Virus record (IMG/VR): IMGVR_UViG_3300044647_000898
Coordinates: 1-36,183 of that record
Length of the DNA: 36,183 nucleotides
Origin: a virus
Strand: one strand, 5' to 3'
Position 1 is the first letter of the stretch. Every line of letters begins with the position of its first letter. Position numbers and translations under genes: made by a program. The notes under the pieces were generated by a model. The model was not told the origin of the DNA. It did no database searches and saw nothing but the letters and a program-made list of their open reading frames with translations. Positions 3,917 through 15,422 of the stretch are shown piece by piece.

Positions 3917-3995
3917 ACGCCATCCAGAAGTTCCAAGCAAATGCCGCGACACACAGCACGATCAGCTTGATCCACATCCAGTCAGTGAATTCCAT
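3900..3995 (-). CDS. 31-residue membrane microprotein, antisense to late operon
   Basis: A minus-strand ORF of 31 codons, too short for usual gene callers. It reads MEFTDWMWIK, then a hydrophobic helix LIVLCVAAFAWNFW, then MAFTGRK: one transmembrane span with an acidic N-terminus and a basic C-terminus. A good Shine-Dalgarno (AGGGAG, on the minus strand at about 4000-4005) lies about 5 nt before the ATG. It fills the only gap between two plus-strand genes and overlaps the last 17 nt of the upstream gene. Hydrophobicity, aromatic content and ribosome site argue for a real gene. Function is unknown; neighbouring lysis genes make a lysis or superinfection role conceivable. A plus-strand GTG ORF in the same space lacks such features. 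Confidence 0.6.
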   Translation of the reverse strand: MEFTDWMWIKLIVLCVAAFAWNFWMAFTGRK

Positions 3996-4019
3996 GAATC
4001 TCCCTAAGAGGTAACACCA

Positions 4020-5150
4020 ATGGCACGAAATGGCAGCGGGGCGTACAGCCTTCCAGTAAACACATGGAACCCGGCAGTCAATGCGGTTTCCGCTTCTGCC
4101 GCCGATTGGCAGACGCTAATCAACGATGTTGCCACAGCCCTGACGGCATCCCTTGCGGCTGATGGGCAAACCCCCATGACCGGCAATCTGGCGATGGGCG
4201 GCAACAAACTGACGGGGCTATCGGCAGGCACGGCGGCGGGTAATTCGCTTCGGTGGGAACAGTTGTTTAGCCAAGGCGTCGAGGCGGATATTGCTTCCGC
4301 GACAACGACCGACATTGGCGCACAGAATACCAACTTCCTGCGCATTACCGGCACGACGACTATAGACAGTTTTGGCACAAACTACAACGGCCCGAGATTC
4401 ATGCGGTTTGCTGATGTTTTGACGCTGACTCACAACGCAACCACGTTGATTCTTCCGGGCGGCGCAAACATTACCTCCGCAGCGGGCGATCAGTTGGTAG
4501 CGTACCCAAAAGGCAATGCCGGAGTGCTTAACGGGTGGCGCGTTTTTTATCAGCGTGCATCAGGGCTTCCGGTGGTGACGACCGGGCTTGTGCCTACCGG
4601 GGCCGTTACGACTTCTGGCCTGACGCAAGCGACTGCGCGGATGCTAGGACGCACTACGGCGGGCGCTGGAGCGATTGAGGAACTGACGGGGGCAAACGTA
4701 TCTGCTTTTGCTTCTGCCGCCACCGACACGGCGCAGGGGGTGGCCGAACTAGCCACGACCGCAGAGACTGAGACGGGGACGGACACGGGCCGGGTGGTGA
4801 CGCCTGCAGGGCTCAAGGGTGCGCTGCTGTTCTCTAACGGCTTTGAATCCACCGGCCAGACGGTAACGCCAAACTCGACGCTAAACGTGGCTCACGGGCT
4901 GGGAGCGCGTCCCAAGATGTTTGACGTTGTGCTGCGTTGCGTTACCGGAGAGGCTGGCTTCTCCGCGAATGACGAGGCATCAATCATTCAAACGGTGCCG
5001 GGGACTAGCGTTATTAACATCTCGGCAGATGCCACCAACGTCATCATCGGCTACACGGGCGCGAGTACCCAGGTGCTGCACAAGACGACACAGGTGGCGA
5101 CCACGATCACCTCTGGCAATTGGGCTTTTGTCGTGAGGGCGTGGGCATGA
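4020..5150 (+). CDS. Tail fibre / receptor-binding protein
   Basis: A 376-residue protein. The N-terminal about 75 residues have the typical phage-fibre opening: MARNGSGAYSLP, then a short helix, then DGQTPMTGNLAMGGNKLTGL, which normally docks the fibre to the virion. The middle is Thr/Ala/Gly-rich beta structure. Around 235-270 lies an ELATTAETETGTDTGRVVTPAGLKG segment of the collar/fibre repeat type. The C-terminal about 100 residues are a beta-rich tip likely to contact the host. A ribosome site (AAGAGGT) precedes the ATG. It sits between ejection and lysis genes, a common place for podovirus fibres. The receptor cannot be inferred. Confidence 0.85.
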   Translation: MARNGSGAYSLPVNTWNPAVNAVSASAADWQTLINDVATALTASLAADGQTPMTGNLAMGGNKLTGLSAGTAAGNSLRWEQLFSQGVEADIASATTTDIGAQNTNFLRITGTTTIDSFGTNYNGPRFMRFADVLTLTHNATTLILPGGANITSAAGDQLVAYPKGNAGVLNGWRVFYQRASGLPVVTTGLVPTGAVTTSGLTQATARMLGRTTAGAGAIEELTGANVSAFASAATDTAQGVAELATTAETETGTDTGRVVTPAGLKGALLFSNGFESTGQTVTPNSTLNVAHGLGARPKMFDVVLRCVTGEAGFSANDEASIIQTVPGTSVINISADATNVIIGYTGASTQVLHKTTQVATTITSGNWAFVVRAWA

Positions 5151-12159: not shown

Positions 12160-12363
12160 ATGAACTTCAAACCTCTATTGCGTGACCTAGCCCAGGTCTA
12201 TACGCTTCAATCAATCGCGGAGATGTGCGGGTTCGCATCTCGTGGGCACGTACACGACGTGATGACAGGCAAACAAGAGGGCGTCAAATTTGAGCTAGGC
12301 ATGTCAATTGTTGATGCCCATGCAAGACTTGTAAAACAGCTAAAACGCAAAGGAAAAAAATGA
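12160..12363 (+). CDS. Small HTH regulator (Cro/repressor-like)
   Basis: A 67-residue basic protein. Residues about 14-40 (YTLQSIAEMCGF-ASRGHVHDVM) fit a helix-turn-helix, with SRGHVHDV as the likely recognition helix. The C-terminus is a Lys/Arg-rich tail (LVKQLKRKGKK). It is the first rightward gene, directly after a divergent control region with two repeat units, the usual place for a Cro- or repressor-like protein. There is no separate repressor with a peptidase domain and no integrase, so I read it as a transcriptional timer rather than a lysogeny repressor. The absence of a ribosome site suggests a leaderless message. Confidence 0.7.
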   Translation: MNFKPLLRDLAQVYTLQSIAEMCGFASRGHVHDVMTGKQEGVKFELGMSIVDAHARLVKQLKRKGKK

Positions 12364-12608
12364 TAGACGCCTTCACCCTAGCCGACTTAGAAGCCCGCGT
12401 AAAAGCGGCAGATGCTCGATACGGCACGTTTGCAAGCACGCACGAAGCACTCGGGGTCGCGCTCGAAGAGTTCCAAGAGCTTACTGAAGCTGTGCGCGCT
12501 AACGTGCTGCAGCATGTCGCATCCGAAGCGCTTGATCTTGCTGCGGTATGCATTCGGCTGGCGATGCAGATTGAAGACCCGCGACTGGCGATGAGGAGCG
12601 TGAAGTGA
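12360..12608 (+). CDS. MazG-like nucleotide pyrophosphohydrolase homologue, short
   Basis: An 82-residue all-helical protein with the paired metal-binding signature of MazG/all-alpha NTP pyrophosphatases: EExxE at residues 36-40 (LEEFQEL) and ExxD at 56-59 (SEALDLAAV). A HEALGVALEE opening precedes it. MazG-fold enzymes hydrolyse (d)NTPs, and phage versions are proposed to clear abnormal nucleotides or adjust alarmone pools. At 82 residues only the core four-helix unit is present, implying a dimer or tetramer. ATGA overlaps the regulator. Its stop overlaps a GTG (12605) that starts the interrupted small gene. Confidence 0.7.
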   Translation: MIDAFTLADLEARVKAADARYGTFASTHEALGVALEEFQELTEAVRANVLQHVASEALDLAAVCIRLAMQIEDPRLAMRSVK

Positions 12609-12649
12609 ACGATTACGACGCATTTGTCGCAAGTCATGTTAGAATGTGA
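12605..12649 (+). pseudogene. 5' part of a small gene split by the GIY-YIG gene
   Basis: GTG 12605 overlaps the MazG-like stop as GTGA, the coupling used elsewhere here, and reads 14 codons (VNDYDAFVASHVRM) to TGA 12647. If bases 12647-13265 are removed, the frame joins at ATG to VIFDATREQVGLFSEAA and ends at TGA 13317-13319, which overlaps the next gene's GTG. The restored 31-codon gene would be coupled on both sides. This is a hypothesis; neither half has a recognised domain. Confidence 0.5.
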
Positions 12650-13263
12650 ACATGATTTACATCTACGGCTTGATTGATCCGGACACCCGAAAAATTCGTT
12701 ACATTGGTAAATCCGTGCGCCCAAAAGAACGGTTGCAAAACCAAATGAATGAAGTGTCGAATTGCCATCGATCACATTGGCTACAAGAGCTTAAGAGAAA
12801 CGGCAAGCGCCCATATCAAATTACGCTACAGGAATTGGAAGATTCTGAGCCGTGGCAGGAATGGGAAAAGGCATGGATAAAGCACGGCCGAGAGTCCGGT
12901 TGGCCGTTGACAAACAATACAGATGGCGGAGATGGCGTCTGTAATTTGCCGGTGGAGACTAGGCAGCGTATGGCCCGTGTTTGGCTTGGCAGGAAACATT
13001 CTGCCGAGTCGCTTGAGCGCCTTCGTATTGCCAGAGCGCAACGCATCACAACTGATGAAACGCGCAAAAGAATCAGCGCCGCTATGGCTGGTAGGCAAAT
13101 CACATGGCGCAGCAAGATATCCGCCTCAAACAGAAAACTTAGTCAGCTTGACATTGCCTCAATACTTGATGCGCTCAACAGCGGGACAAGTGTCGTTTCG
13201 CTGTCAAATCAATACGGCGTTCACCGCACAACCATAAGCAAGGTCAAAAAGGGGAAGTATTAA
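12646..13263 (+). CDS. GIY-YIG homing endonuclease with NUMOD3-like and HTH domains
   Basis: A 205-residue protein. The N-terminal GIY-YIG domain shows YIYGLIDP (6-13), RYIGKSVRPKERL with the catalytic-type Arg, the Glu in WEKAWIKHG, and LTNNTDGGDG near its end. Residues about 105-150 contain two NUMOD3-type DNA-reading units (GRKHSAESLERLRIA; TDETRKRISAAMAGR). Residues about 163-203 form a resolvase-type HTH. Free-standing homing endonucleases of this build cut alleles lacking them and spread by repair. Two sampled 60-nt lines are 47-48% GC against 62% in a neighbouring gene, suggesting separate acquisition. GTG 12646 couples to the upstream TGA (GTGA); ATG 12652 is an alternative start. TAATG joins its stop to the downstream fragment. 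Confidence 0.9.
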   Translation: MNMIYIYGLIDPDTRKIRYIGKSVRPKERLQNQMNEVSNCHRSHWLQELKRNGKRPYQITLQELEDSEPWQEWEKAWIKHGRESGWPLTNNTDGGDGVCNLPVETRQRMARVWLGRKHSAESLERLRIARAQRITTDETRKRISAAMAGRQITWRSKISASNRKLSQLDIASILDALNSGTSVVSLSNQYGVHRTTISKVKKGKY

Positions 13264-13319
13264 TGGTCATCTTTGATGCCACCCGCGAGCAAGTGGGGCT
13301 TTTCTCGGAGGCCGCGTGA
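13263..13319 (+). pseudogene. 3' part of the small gene split by the GIY-YIG gene
   Basis: Begins with an ATG overlapping the endonuclease stop (TAATG) and encodes MVIFDATREQVGLFSEAA. The TGA at 13317-13319 overlaps the GTG of the next gene. See 12605-12649 for the matching 5' part. Both fragments may still be translated through start/stop coupling. Confidence 0.45.
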
Positions 13320-13870
13320 GTGTTTTTGACTGGAACACCGGCCAGCCGTCCATTTTTGGCAACCGGCAGCAAGTTGCCAACATCAGCAAGAAGCAAAGCC
13401 AAGGTACGCGATTCCGCCCTGATCCTGTGCCTACATTGCGCAAGAAGCCAAACCGCGACAACAGCAAGCGCACTGTGCCGCTGGTAAAGCGCATTGATTT
13501 TTTCGAAGTGCGAGCGTACCGCATGACCGGCAAGAGTTGGGCGGAGTGCGCGGAGAAGTTCAAATGTAGCGTGAAGCACATTCATGAGCGGTCTATTTCG
13601 CTCTACCCCGAACTGCGCTCAAAGCACTACGGAAAGCCTGCCGGGAACAAGCCAAAGCCACTGCCGCTGCTCGACATCATTGGCGACATCATGGCGGGAG
13701 AATCTTTGCGCAGCGTGTCGCGCAAGTACGGCATAAGCCATGTGTCGTTGCGCTACCGGCTGATGCAATTGCCGGAAGGCGTGGAAGCGGTACGGGCGGC
13801 GGCGCGTCGGTTTGCCGAGAGCAATGCCAAGCTGAAAGCGGAAGCGAAGAAGCGCCGTGAAGTGCAGTAA
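13316..13870 (+). CDS. Putative DNA-binding protein with two HTH-like motifs
   Basis: A 184-residue, very basic protein. The first about 55 residues are Lys/Arg/Gln-rich and probably disordered. Residues about 64-92 (TGKSWAECAEKFKCSVKHIH) and about 118-150 (GESLRSVSRKYGISHVSLRY) each read as a helix-turn-helix of the type that recognises DNA in transposase or sigma-like proteins. A helical, charged tail follows. The GTG start overlaps the preceding stop (GTGA). A regulatory or replication-accessory role is plausible; the family is not recognised. Confidence 0.7.
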   Translation: MSVFDWNTGQPSIFGNRQQVANISKKQSQGTRFRPDPVPTLRKKPNRDNSKRTVPLVKRIDFFEVRAYRMTGKSWAECAEKFKCSVKHIHERSISLYPELRSKHYGKPAGNKPKPLPLLDIIGDIMAGESLRSVSRKYGISHVSLRYRLMQLPEGVEAVRAAARRFAESNAKLKAEAKKRREVQ

Positions 13871-14060
13871 CTGCGGGCGCGGGATGCGAGAGCCAGCGGG
13901 CTACGTTTCCGGCGCTCCTGTGGGGCCTACGTGCCTTGCGAATCTCGTGGGCAGGGCAGAGGTGCGGCGCAGTCGGAAAACGGCTGTAGTCGCGGTGGAT
14001 CAACCTGATTTATTTGGAGACGAAGATGGAAGACAGAGAACTGTTAGAGATGGCGGCTAA
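13857..14060 (+). CDS. Zinc-ribbon protein with beta-clamp-binding-like motif
   Basis: A 67-residue protein with a GTG start overlapping the previous gene by 14 nt. It opens KCSNCGRGMRE (C3, C6) followed by GAPVGPTCLANL (C26), consistent with a zinc ribbon. After a basic stretch comes VDQPDLFGDED. QPDLF (49-53) matches four of five positions of the bacterial sliding-clamp motif QL[SD]LF. That would let a phage protein dock on host DnaN, which matters for a phage without its own polymerase. The motif is visible; clamp binding is inference. Confidence 0.7.
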   Translation: MKCSNCGRGMREPAGYVSGAPVGPTCLANLVGRAEVRRSRKTAVVAVDQPDLFGDEDGRQRTVRDGG

Positions 14061-14352
14061 GGCTGCGGGGATTGAGTGGTGCGCGTATTACCCAGACAAG
14101 GTTTCCCATTGCGACCTTTGTTTGCAACCGTCCGGACGCCTGTGGAACCCGCTGACGGGTGACGGCGATGCGCTGCGGCTGGCAGTGAAGTTGCGTATCA
14201 ATCTGCATGTCTGCGAATCCGACGCAATGACAACCGCATATGCGGAAGGTGCCATTCAAGGCGCATCCGTCGATTTCATGGACGACCCATACGCCGCAAC
14301 CCGCCGCGCCATCGTCCGCGCTGCCGCTGAAATCGGAAAGGCTATGCCATGA
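14026..14352 (+). CDS. Hypothetical early protein, paralogue of the 7622-7900 product
   Basis: A 108-residue protein starting MEDRELLEMAAKAAG at ATG 14026 with a TTGGAG ribosome site; a TTG 12 nt upstream is not needed. It shares with the minus-strand paralogue the N-terminal helix, WNPLTGDGDALRL and the last 18 residues. It differs by a roughly 20-residue insert with Cys/His residues (CAYYPDKVSHCDLC, about 19-32) that could bind zinc. It overlaps the preceding gene by 35 nt and the next by 4. Function unknown. Confidence 0.8.
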   Translation: MEDRELLEMAAKAAGIEWCAYYPDKVSHCDLCLQPSGRLWNPLTGDGDALRLAVKLRINLHVCESDAMTTAYAEGAIQGASVDFMDDPYAATRRAIVRAAAEIGKAMP

Positions 14353-14353
14353 C
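14296..14353. repeat. Inverted repeat arm, right
   Basis: Partner of 7621-7678: 55 of 58 positions match in inverted orientation, and the last 34 are identical. Two of the three differences are at codon third positions and all are silent or near-silent in the shared C-terminus. Confidence 0.9.
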
Positions 14354-14591
14354 ACAAACCCAGCGTATCGGCAAGCTCCTGCAGCGCAAGCGGGGAGCGA
14401 CATCGATGGAAATCATAACCTGCGGGCCGACTGTAAGCCCGCATAGGCGCTTGTTCGACCTGAAGGCGCAGGGTTGGATCATCACCCGCGTAAAAGTGCC
14501 TGGGGAGCGATACGGGCGGTATCACGGACAGCCGCCGGAGTCGTGCTACTTCACGGCAATGGGACAAGCGCATGCGCGGAAATTGCGGTAA
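14349..14591 (+). CDS. Winged-helix DNA-binding-like protein
   Basis: An 80-residue protein beginning MTQTQRIGKLLQRKRGATSM. Helices about 3-14, 19-26 and 31-42 (SPHRRLFDLKAQGW) are followed by an IITRVKVPGERYGRYHG wing. This is the short winged HTH common in phage early and replication regions. ATG overlaps the upstream stop (ATGA). It likely acts as a small transcription or replication accessory factor. The following 96 nt (14592-14687) contain no supported gene, only the ribosome site GGGAG of the next one. Confidence 0.7.
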   Translation: MTQTQRIGKLLQRKRGATSMEIITCGPTVSPHRRLFDLKAQGWIITRVKVPGERYGRYHGQPPESCYFTAMGQAHARKLR

Positions 14592-14687
14592 ACTTTAGCA
14601 TGAACCCGGCTAGGTGTGGATTGATCCCCGCACTGAAAAGCGAACCCGACGCCTGCCGTAAGTTCTTTTCGGGAGCATCGGACGGCT

Positions 14688-15422
14688 ATGAACTATTACG
14701 AACGCCACATCGGCGACTACCTGAAAGACACGGCGCACCTGTCTTTGCTTGAGCATGGCGTGTACGGCCGCCTGCTGGATGTCTACTACACCCGCGAAGG
14801 CCCGCTGCCTGTCAATCAGGTTGATCGGCTAATCGGTGTCCGCAGCAAAGATGAGCGGGCGGCACTCGCTGCCGTGCTGGATGAGTTTTTTGCTCTGGAC
14901 GGCGATGTGTTGCGGCATCCGCGCTGTGAACGCGAGATAGCCCGTTATCAGGACAAGCAAGAAAAGGCCAAACGCAGTGCCAATGCACGATGGGAAAACA
15001 AGTCACAGCATACCGAACGCAATGCGAACGCAATGCGAACGCATAGCGAAGGCAATGCTCTCCAGACACCAGTAACCAGTAACCAGACACCAGTAACCAT
15101 AAAGAAAGAAGGAGATAGCGGGTCAGCGCAAGCGCAGACACCGCCGCCACCATACCGAGGTGAAGCAAATGAGGCAGAAATTCATCCGAAGGCCAAAGTC
15201 ATGCTGGCGGCAGATTGGGAGCTTCCTGAGCCGTGGGGCGTAGATGCCGAAAACCTTGGATGGCCTGCCAAAAGCATCCTGCACGAAGCGGAGAAGTTCC
15301 GGCAGTTCTACACGGTCGGGAAGGGTGGAGGAACGCGCCGAGGGCTGAAAGGCTGGCGGCAATCATGGTCTAACTGGCTGTCGAACGCTGAAAAGTTCGC
15401 GCCGATTCGGAGGGTTGTATGA
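14688..15422 (+). CDS. DUF1376-type phage replication protein
   Basis: A 244-residue protein. The N-domain (about 1-95) has the DUF1376 pattern: YYERHIGDYLKDTAHLSLLE, then YGRLLDVYYTREGPLP, then a winged-helix-like region. DUF1376 occurs at the start of phage replication initiators and helicase-loader partners. A polar linker (about 96-165) contains the two DNA repeat arrays at 15014-15103. The C-domain (about 195-240) has KFRQFYTVG and RRGLKGWRQSWSNWL, resembling DnaT/initiator C-ends that contact host helicase machinery. With no polymerase or helicase in the genome, this is the best candidate initiator. A GGGAG ribosome site lies before the ATG. Confidence 0.85.
   Translation: MNYYERHIGDYLKDTAHLSLLEHGVYGRLLDVYYTREGPLPVNQVDRLIGVRSKDERAALAAVLDEFFALDGDVLRHPRCEREIARYQDKQEKAKRSANARWENKSQHTERNANAMRTHSEGNALQTPVTSNQTPVTIKKEGDSGSAQAQTPPPPYRGEANEAEIHPKAKVMLAADWELPEPWGVDAENLGWPAKSILHEAEKFRQFYTVGKGGGTRRGLKGWRQSWSNWLSNAEKFAPIRRVV
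15014..15057 (+). repeat. Tandem 11-bp repeat array (candidate origin iterons)
   Basis: Four head-to-tail 11-bp units: CGAACGCAATG (15014), CGAACGCAATG (15025), CGAACGCATAG (15036), CGAAGGCAATG (15047). Eleven is not a multiple of three, so successive units are read in different frames and encode different residues. The repeat is therefore a DNA-level feature. It lies in the linker of the replication gene, as the lambda iterons lie inside gene O. Confidence 0.8.
15062..15103 (+). repeat. Tandem 7-bp repeat array (candidate origin element)
   Basis: Six head-to-tail 7-bp units starting at 15062: CCAGACA, CCAGTAA, CCAGTAA, CCAGACA, CCAGTAA, CCATAAA. It starts 4 nt after the 11-bp array and is followed by a purine/A-rich stretch (AAAGAAAGAAGGAGATAG) that could melt. 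Again the unit is not a multiple of three. Confidence 0.8.

Follow-up and report, generated by a model that had tools for sequence, protein, structure and literature searches.

A GIY-YIG endonuclease gene that lies between short coding fragments, each overlapping a neighbouring gene, raises the question of which gene the endonuclease entered and what became of that gene. The window (the whole stretch of DNA analyzed, 36,183 nucleotides) is recognized as a virus record, and its identity as a phage is indicated by a terminase large subunit, a portal protein, and an amidase. The initial annotation had proposed that the endonuclease was inserted into a 31-codon gene. Comparison with near relatives points to a far longer host gene, of which the window retains the two ends.

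Organization of the locus

The left neighbour of the endonuclease is an open reading frame for a MazG-like protein (12360-12608; plus strand, as for all window features given here). Its Pfam match to MazG is weak (E 0.023, below the curated cut-off). The protein is 95-96% identical in L006 and L007, and the DNA identity to L006 is 93%. The right neighbour (13316-13870) encodes a helix-turn-helix (HTH) protein that is 99% identical in L001 and L002. The relatives were fetched with two queries, the HTH protein and the MazG-like protein. Searches of phage and plasmid collections with the HTH protein and the endonuclease gave no close match.

The individual elements on which the initial annotation was built are all present. 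The endonuclease ORF starts at 12646 or 12652 and ends at 13263, the GTG-started VNDYDAFVASHVRM begins at 12605, and the segment ATGGTCATCTTTGATGCC ends at 13319. GTGA overlaps with the neighbouring genes are found at 12605-12608 and 13316-13319, and a TAATG junction at 13261-13265. Translational coupling is kept on both sides of the endonuclease, and the GC content is lower in its ORF (0.49) than in the flanks (0.58).

The content of the slot between the MazG-like and HTH genes differs among the relatives. In L003-L005, ParB-like and PAPS-reductase-like genes (assigned by eye) fill the slot, and the MazG-like gene is shorter by about 27 codons, in frame. L007 holds a different helicase. L001 and L002 contain two different small Cro-like ORFs (by eye) upstream of a helicase-methyltransferase gene, in place of the MazG-like gene; the L001/L002 homology begins at the helicase start codon, indicating exchange at gene boundaries. 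The slot is generally variable.

Remnants of a helicase-methyltransferase gene

L001 contains an intact 735-codon helicase-methyltransferase fusion gene, whose product begins with MKDYDAFVAS and has NIYDATREQVGLFSEAA as its last residues. In both L001 and L002, the gene ending in NIYDATREQVGLFSEAA directly precedes the HTH gene, with the same GTGA overlap as in the window. The L002 version begins with VNDYDSFVAS and ends in DATREQVGLFSEAA before the HTH gene. Pfam places an SNF2/DEAD-type helicase at residues about 33-387 of the 735-codon gene (weak matches that fall slightly short of the cut-offs) and an N6_N4_Mtase domain at residues 475-716. The L002 gene (929-3135) is frameshifted near 2510 and reads as two ORFs, a change that is either genuine or introduced by assembly. 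L006 has the same GTGAACGATTACGACGCATTTGTCGCAAG as the window after its MazG-like gene, and there the sequence runs on as helicase until the contig stops inside the gene.

The window contains counterparts of both ends of this gene. A 29-bp 5′ remnant (12605-12633; GTG AAC GAT TAC GAC GCA TTT GTC GCA AG) is identical to L006, where the reading continues into the helicase; the homology ends at 12633. A 45-bp 3′ remnant (13275-13319) encodes DATREQVGLFSEAA and a stop codon, is identical to L001 4960-5004 and to L002, and can be read within an 18-codon ORF from ATG 13263. VNDYDAFVAS and the DATREQVGLFSEAA terminus are thus the two ends of one 735-codon gene for an SNF2-type helicase and N4/N6 DNA methyltransferase, of which about 711 codons have been lost. 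The rest of the window contains no other copy of the helicase-methyltransferase.

The joints were set by alignment to endonuclease-free relatives, with L006 used for the left joint and L001 and L002 for the right joint. They fall at 12633/12634 and 13274/13275, and enclose an endonuclease cassette of 641 bp (12634-13274) that replaces 2,134 bp (L001 2826-4959). The right joint is located 45 bp inside the 3′ end of the methyltransferase gene, beyond residue 716, the end of the Pfam methyltransferase domain. The 11 bases at this joint (13264-13274) match neither the relatives nor the lost gene, and no donor with a matching 3′ flank was found. The replaced allele is carried by this contig only, and the joints rest on one assembly. 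These alignments show that the cassette occupies the place of the helicase-methyltransferase gene, and we regard the replacement as solid. Because the right flank (13275-15093, 1,819 bp) shares 96.8% DNA identity with L001, the replacement is recent on the scale of the phage group.

The endonuclease protein

The endonuclease gene (12646-13263) has its likely start at ATG 12652, with GTG 12646 as an alternative, and encodes a GIY-YIG domain followed by a C-terminal HTH. The protein matches PF01541 with 24.3 bits against a cut-off of 22.6, and its PHROG matches are homing endonuclease families. Y5, Y17, R27, and E72 are invariant in an alignment of 10 homologous sequences; by analogy to I-TevI, we take them to be the catalytic Tyr, Tyr, Arg, and Glu. 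In a fold search, the predicted model resembles the I-TevI catalytic domain 1ln0 (TM 0.66 by target length) and also matched UvrC 1yd6. A search of solved structures with the sequence profile gave no match. The domain match and the conserved catalytic residues place the protein in the GIY-YIG nuclease superfamily.

At the C terminus, the HTH and NUMOD3 matches of the window protein are sub-threshold, and the model contains HTH-like helices. In homologues, the C-terminal module scores above cut-off as HTH_38 in L102 and as NUMOD3 in L016. The gene has the attributes of a free-standing phage homing endonuclease, with a C-terminal DNA-binding module and no intron or intein. Presence and absence at the same site are also found, in the window versus L006/L001, L098 versus L047, and L097 versus L059. 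A group I intron endonuclease was considered and rejected. Almost the entire 641-bp cassette is taken up by the ORF, which leaves no room for an intron, as the initial annotation had noted. With about 711 codons missing from the coding sequence around the cassette, splicing could not restore the host gene.

The leader of the endonuclease gene

The cassette starts with an inverted repeat, TCATGTT-agaatgtg-AACATGA (12634-12655), which forms a predicted leader hairpin over the start codon ATG 12652. An extended −10-like element, TGTTAGAAT (12637-12645), lies in the loop side of the hairpin; its counterpart in L014 is TGCTAAAAT. A sigma-70 scan at the leader identified no full promoter, only the extended −10 likeness. 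The segment CATGTTAGAAT (12635-12645) belongs to the endonuclease leader, since it recurs immediately ahead of the endonuclease of L091/L097, which is 68% identical. Compared with shuffled sequences, the leader folds only mildly better in the window (z −1.9), and with z of −3.2 in L091 and −8.8 in L014. L014 contains a 17-pair stem at the same place, reaching into the coding region, and the stem of L091 is weaker than that of L014. Seven-base perfect repeats of the hairpin type occur nine times in the whole window.

A wider leader motif, CATGTTAGAATNNNNACATGA, was also considered and discarded; its other hits all represent a single unrelated sequence, in near-identical copies, at about chance level. 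In the near-identical contigs L177, L179, L180, and L181, it is found before a gene of the opposite strand that looks dNMP-kinase-like by eye, probably by chance.

The layout of hairpin and promoter in T4 I-TevI, segB, and mobE, where a hairpin prevents initiation on read-through transcripts and there is also an internal late promoter, resembles the window leader (PMC2988022). In read-through mRNA, the leader hairpin would occlude the start codon except when a ribosome is translating the stub upstream. The 14-codon stub ORF crosses the 5′ arm, and ribosomes arriving from the MazG-like gene may open the hairpin. The −10-like element in the loop, a putative promoter, could start a hairpin-free message.

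Instead of an RNA hairpin, the palindrome might be an operator through which the endonuclease represses its own synthesis. The palindrome overlaps the −10-like element, and I-TevI provides a precedent, repressing its own promoter from a site that resembles its homing site (PMC2988022). The 17-bp stem of L014, which extends into the coding sequence and folds much better than shuffled versions, favours RNA. We therefore consider a role as operator in place of a hairpin rather unlikely; the two roles are compatible with each other.

The endonuclease subfamily and helicase-methyltransferase loci

A profile search yielded a close group of homologues with 44-68% identity (L097, L098, L099 = L100, L101 = L015, L017, L102, L103, L104, and L175, the last being a bacterial MAG contig), below which there is a drop to weaker, mostly partial matches. 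No second copy of the window endonuclease above 68% identity was found. In the tree, the window endonuclease groups with L097 (support 99/97) and then with L098 (99/94).

A helicase-methyltransferase adjoins the endonuclease in 8 of the 9 non-redundant close relatives; for distant GIY-YIG loci, the figure is 1 of 70 (Fisher p 3e-9), where the distant set is somewhat redundant and the placement varies among the close loci. The endonuclease immediately follows the fused gene in L097, L098, and L102, is flanked by separate helicase and methyltransferase genes in L099, L101, L017, and L175, and follows a separate methyltransferase gene in L103. In the ninth relative, L104, the next ORF resembles an N4/N6 methyltransferase (TSPPYW motif, by eye). 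These gene contexts show that the GIY-YIG plus HTH subfamily is tied to helicase/methyltransferase loci. The endonuclease is present in only 2 of the 79 fused-gene loci fetched.

The idea that the endonuclease split the helicase from the methyltransferase in L101-type loci was rejected, as endonuclease-free L184-L206 already contain two genes. Other nucleases are seen at these loci. L183 contains an HNH-type nuclease-like ORF (1509-1994; by eye, with an AP2-like end) between its helicase and methyltransferase genes, in the gap where L182/L101 have the GIY-YIG endonuclease; the methyltransferase is 93% identical. In L102, an HNH-like ORF (720-1184) lies just upstream and the GIY-YIG endonuclease (3995-4621) just downstream of the helicase-methyltransferase, whose methyltransferase part seems enlarged or duplicated (942-aa ORF).

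Two sister cases display the site with and without the endonuclease. Downstream of the L098 endonuclease, 1.3 kb of DNA match L047 at 91%, from the final codons of the L047 methyltransferase onward. For L097, the match is to L059 (81% over 2.4 kb) and begins just after the methyltransferase stop. Thus, in both cases, the endonuclease entered at the methyltransferase 3′ end without gene loss.

Model and alternatives

The preferred reading, to which we assign a probability of roughly 0.8, is that a free-standing GIY-YIG endonuclease homed to the methyltransferase 3′ end and that the target gene was lost afterwards or in the same event. The enzyme would cut endonuclease-free helicase-methyltransferase alleles, and repair of the double-strand break would copy the cassette in, at the methyltransferase 3′ end or close to it. 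The target gene would then be lost, either through a deletion extending from its tenth codon up to the leader of the cassette or because the repair went wrong as the cassette invaded. The old gene ends keep the coupling, running from the MazG-like gene through the 14-codon stub, the endonuclease, and the 18-codon remnant to the HTH gene. The cleavage site is likely inside the helicase-methyltransferase gene. The joints do not have to mark the cut, because the reported cleavage sites of free-standing endonucleases can be far from the insertion (PMC2988022). The order of events, the cleavage site, and the activity of the endonuclease are those that we infer. More tentatively, the subfamily may be specialized on helicase-DNA methyltransferase genes to the extent that it also deletes its target, takes over the slot and couplings, removes a modification gene, and gains immunity to re-cutting; we view this extension as possible but doubtful.

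The endonuclease might instead have been acquired by passive module swapping, through illegitimate recombination at gene ends, with its own cleavage playing no role. The variability of the slot, with other genes in L003-L005 and L007 and another left neighbour in L001/L002, is in keeping with such swapping. However, the subfamily of the incoming gene is already tied to just this target gene, and in the sister phages the endonuclease is found at the methyltransferase 3′ end with the gene not lost. This course of events is accordingly somewhat improbable. An assembly chimera, in which two metagenome populations were joined at short matches, would fit the single contig and the lack of a second endonuclease copy above 68% identity, but it is very improbable, as it needs two independent joints in one gene plus the capture of a subfamily specific for that gene, and the translational overlaps are intact on both sides.

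Clean insertion into a 31-codon gene is practically untenable: removal of the insert does leave an in-frame 31-codon ORF with GTGA at both sides, but both fragments are ends of the 735-codon gene in near relatives, and none of 2.9 million viral contigs has the two flanks joined directly or up to 30 bases apart. The initial annotation was right that a GIY-YIG homing-type endonuclease interrupts one coding sequence whose fragments belong together, and that the coupled ends are real; the gene, however, has 735 codons. An uninterrupted 31-codon ORF had been expected in endonuclease-free relatives, with the cleavage site inside it, whereas L006, L001, and L002 contain the 735-codon type of gene. 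The insert limits had been placed at two AATG sequences, while the homology actually stops at 12633 and resumes at 13275. The residues HVRM, assigned to the host gene, are encoded by the endonuclease's own leader (CATGTTAGAAT), common with the nearest homologue. An in-frame fusion of 14 and 17 codons is a one-in-three coincidence. The 31-codon gene is an artefact that arose because the wrong interval was removed, and a short gene reconstructed by closing an insert can be no more than the leftover ends of a long one.

Relation to known systems and implications

The window offers a well-resolved case of a familiar type of element, the free-standing phage homing endonuclease, in an unusual state, replacing its probable target gene. 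Like the T4-type SegA-SegG of intronless homing, the endonuclease combines a GIY-YIG domain with a C-terminal DNA-binding region, has no intron, adjoins a conserved phage gene, and varies in presence among near relatives. It is only distantly related to SegA-SegG in sequence, is tied to a helicase-DNA methyltransferase gene, and its presumed target gene is gone except for two ends. I-TevI shares the catalytic domain fold and a leader hairpin with a promoter-like element, but sits in the td intron, whereas the window endonuclease has no intron and its host gene is lost. The td intron carrying I-TevI splices out, and td stays functional.

In ICP1-like phages, nucleases lie at gene-exchange boundaries and can give way to nucleases of other classes (PMC10448857), like the GIY-YIG gene of L182 and the HNH-like ORF of L183 in the same helicase/methyltransferase gap. 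The ICP1-like loci carry cargo genes along, whereas in the window a neighbour gene is displaced. As summarized in PMC2988022, which cites Sandegren et al. 2005, SegH and Hef replace mobC and mobE. On that summary, they are similar to the window endonuclease in replacing another gene at a fixed site, but the genes replaced are endonucleases rather than a helicase-methyltransferase.

SegB can drive the amplification of anti-defence loci (PMC13096335). The present case is the opposite outcome, with a DNA-modification gene lost at the endonuclease site; from its domain content, we assume that the helicase-methyltransferase probably counters host restriction. Within a near-identical set of phages, three states of the target gene are seen: before the endonuclease, alongside it, and after it. 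The usual view of homing endonucleases is that they leave their target gene intact, because its loss would be costly to the host phage. The locus raises the question of whether homing drives the loss of a DNA-modification gene, and a subfamily with a predictable target gene allows its cleavage sites to be sought directly.
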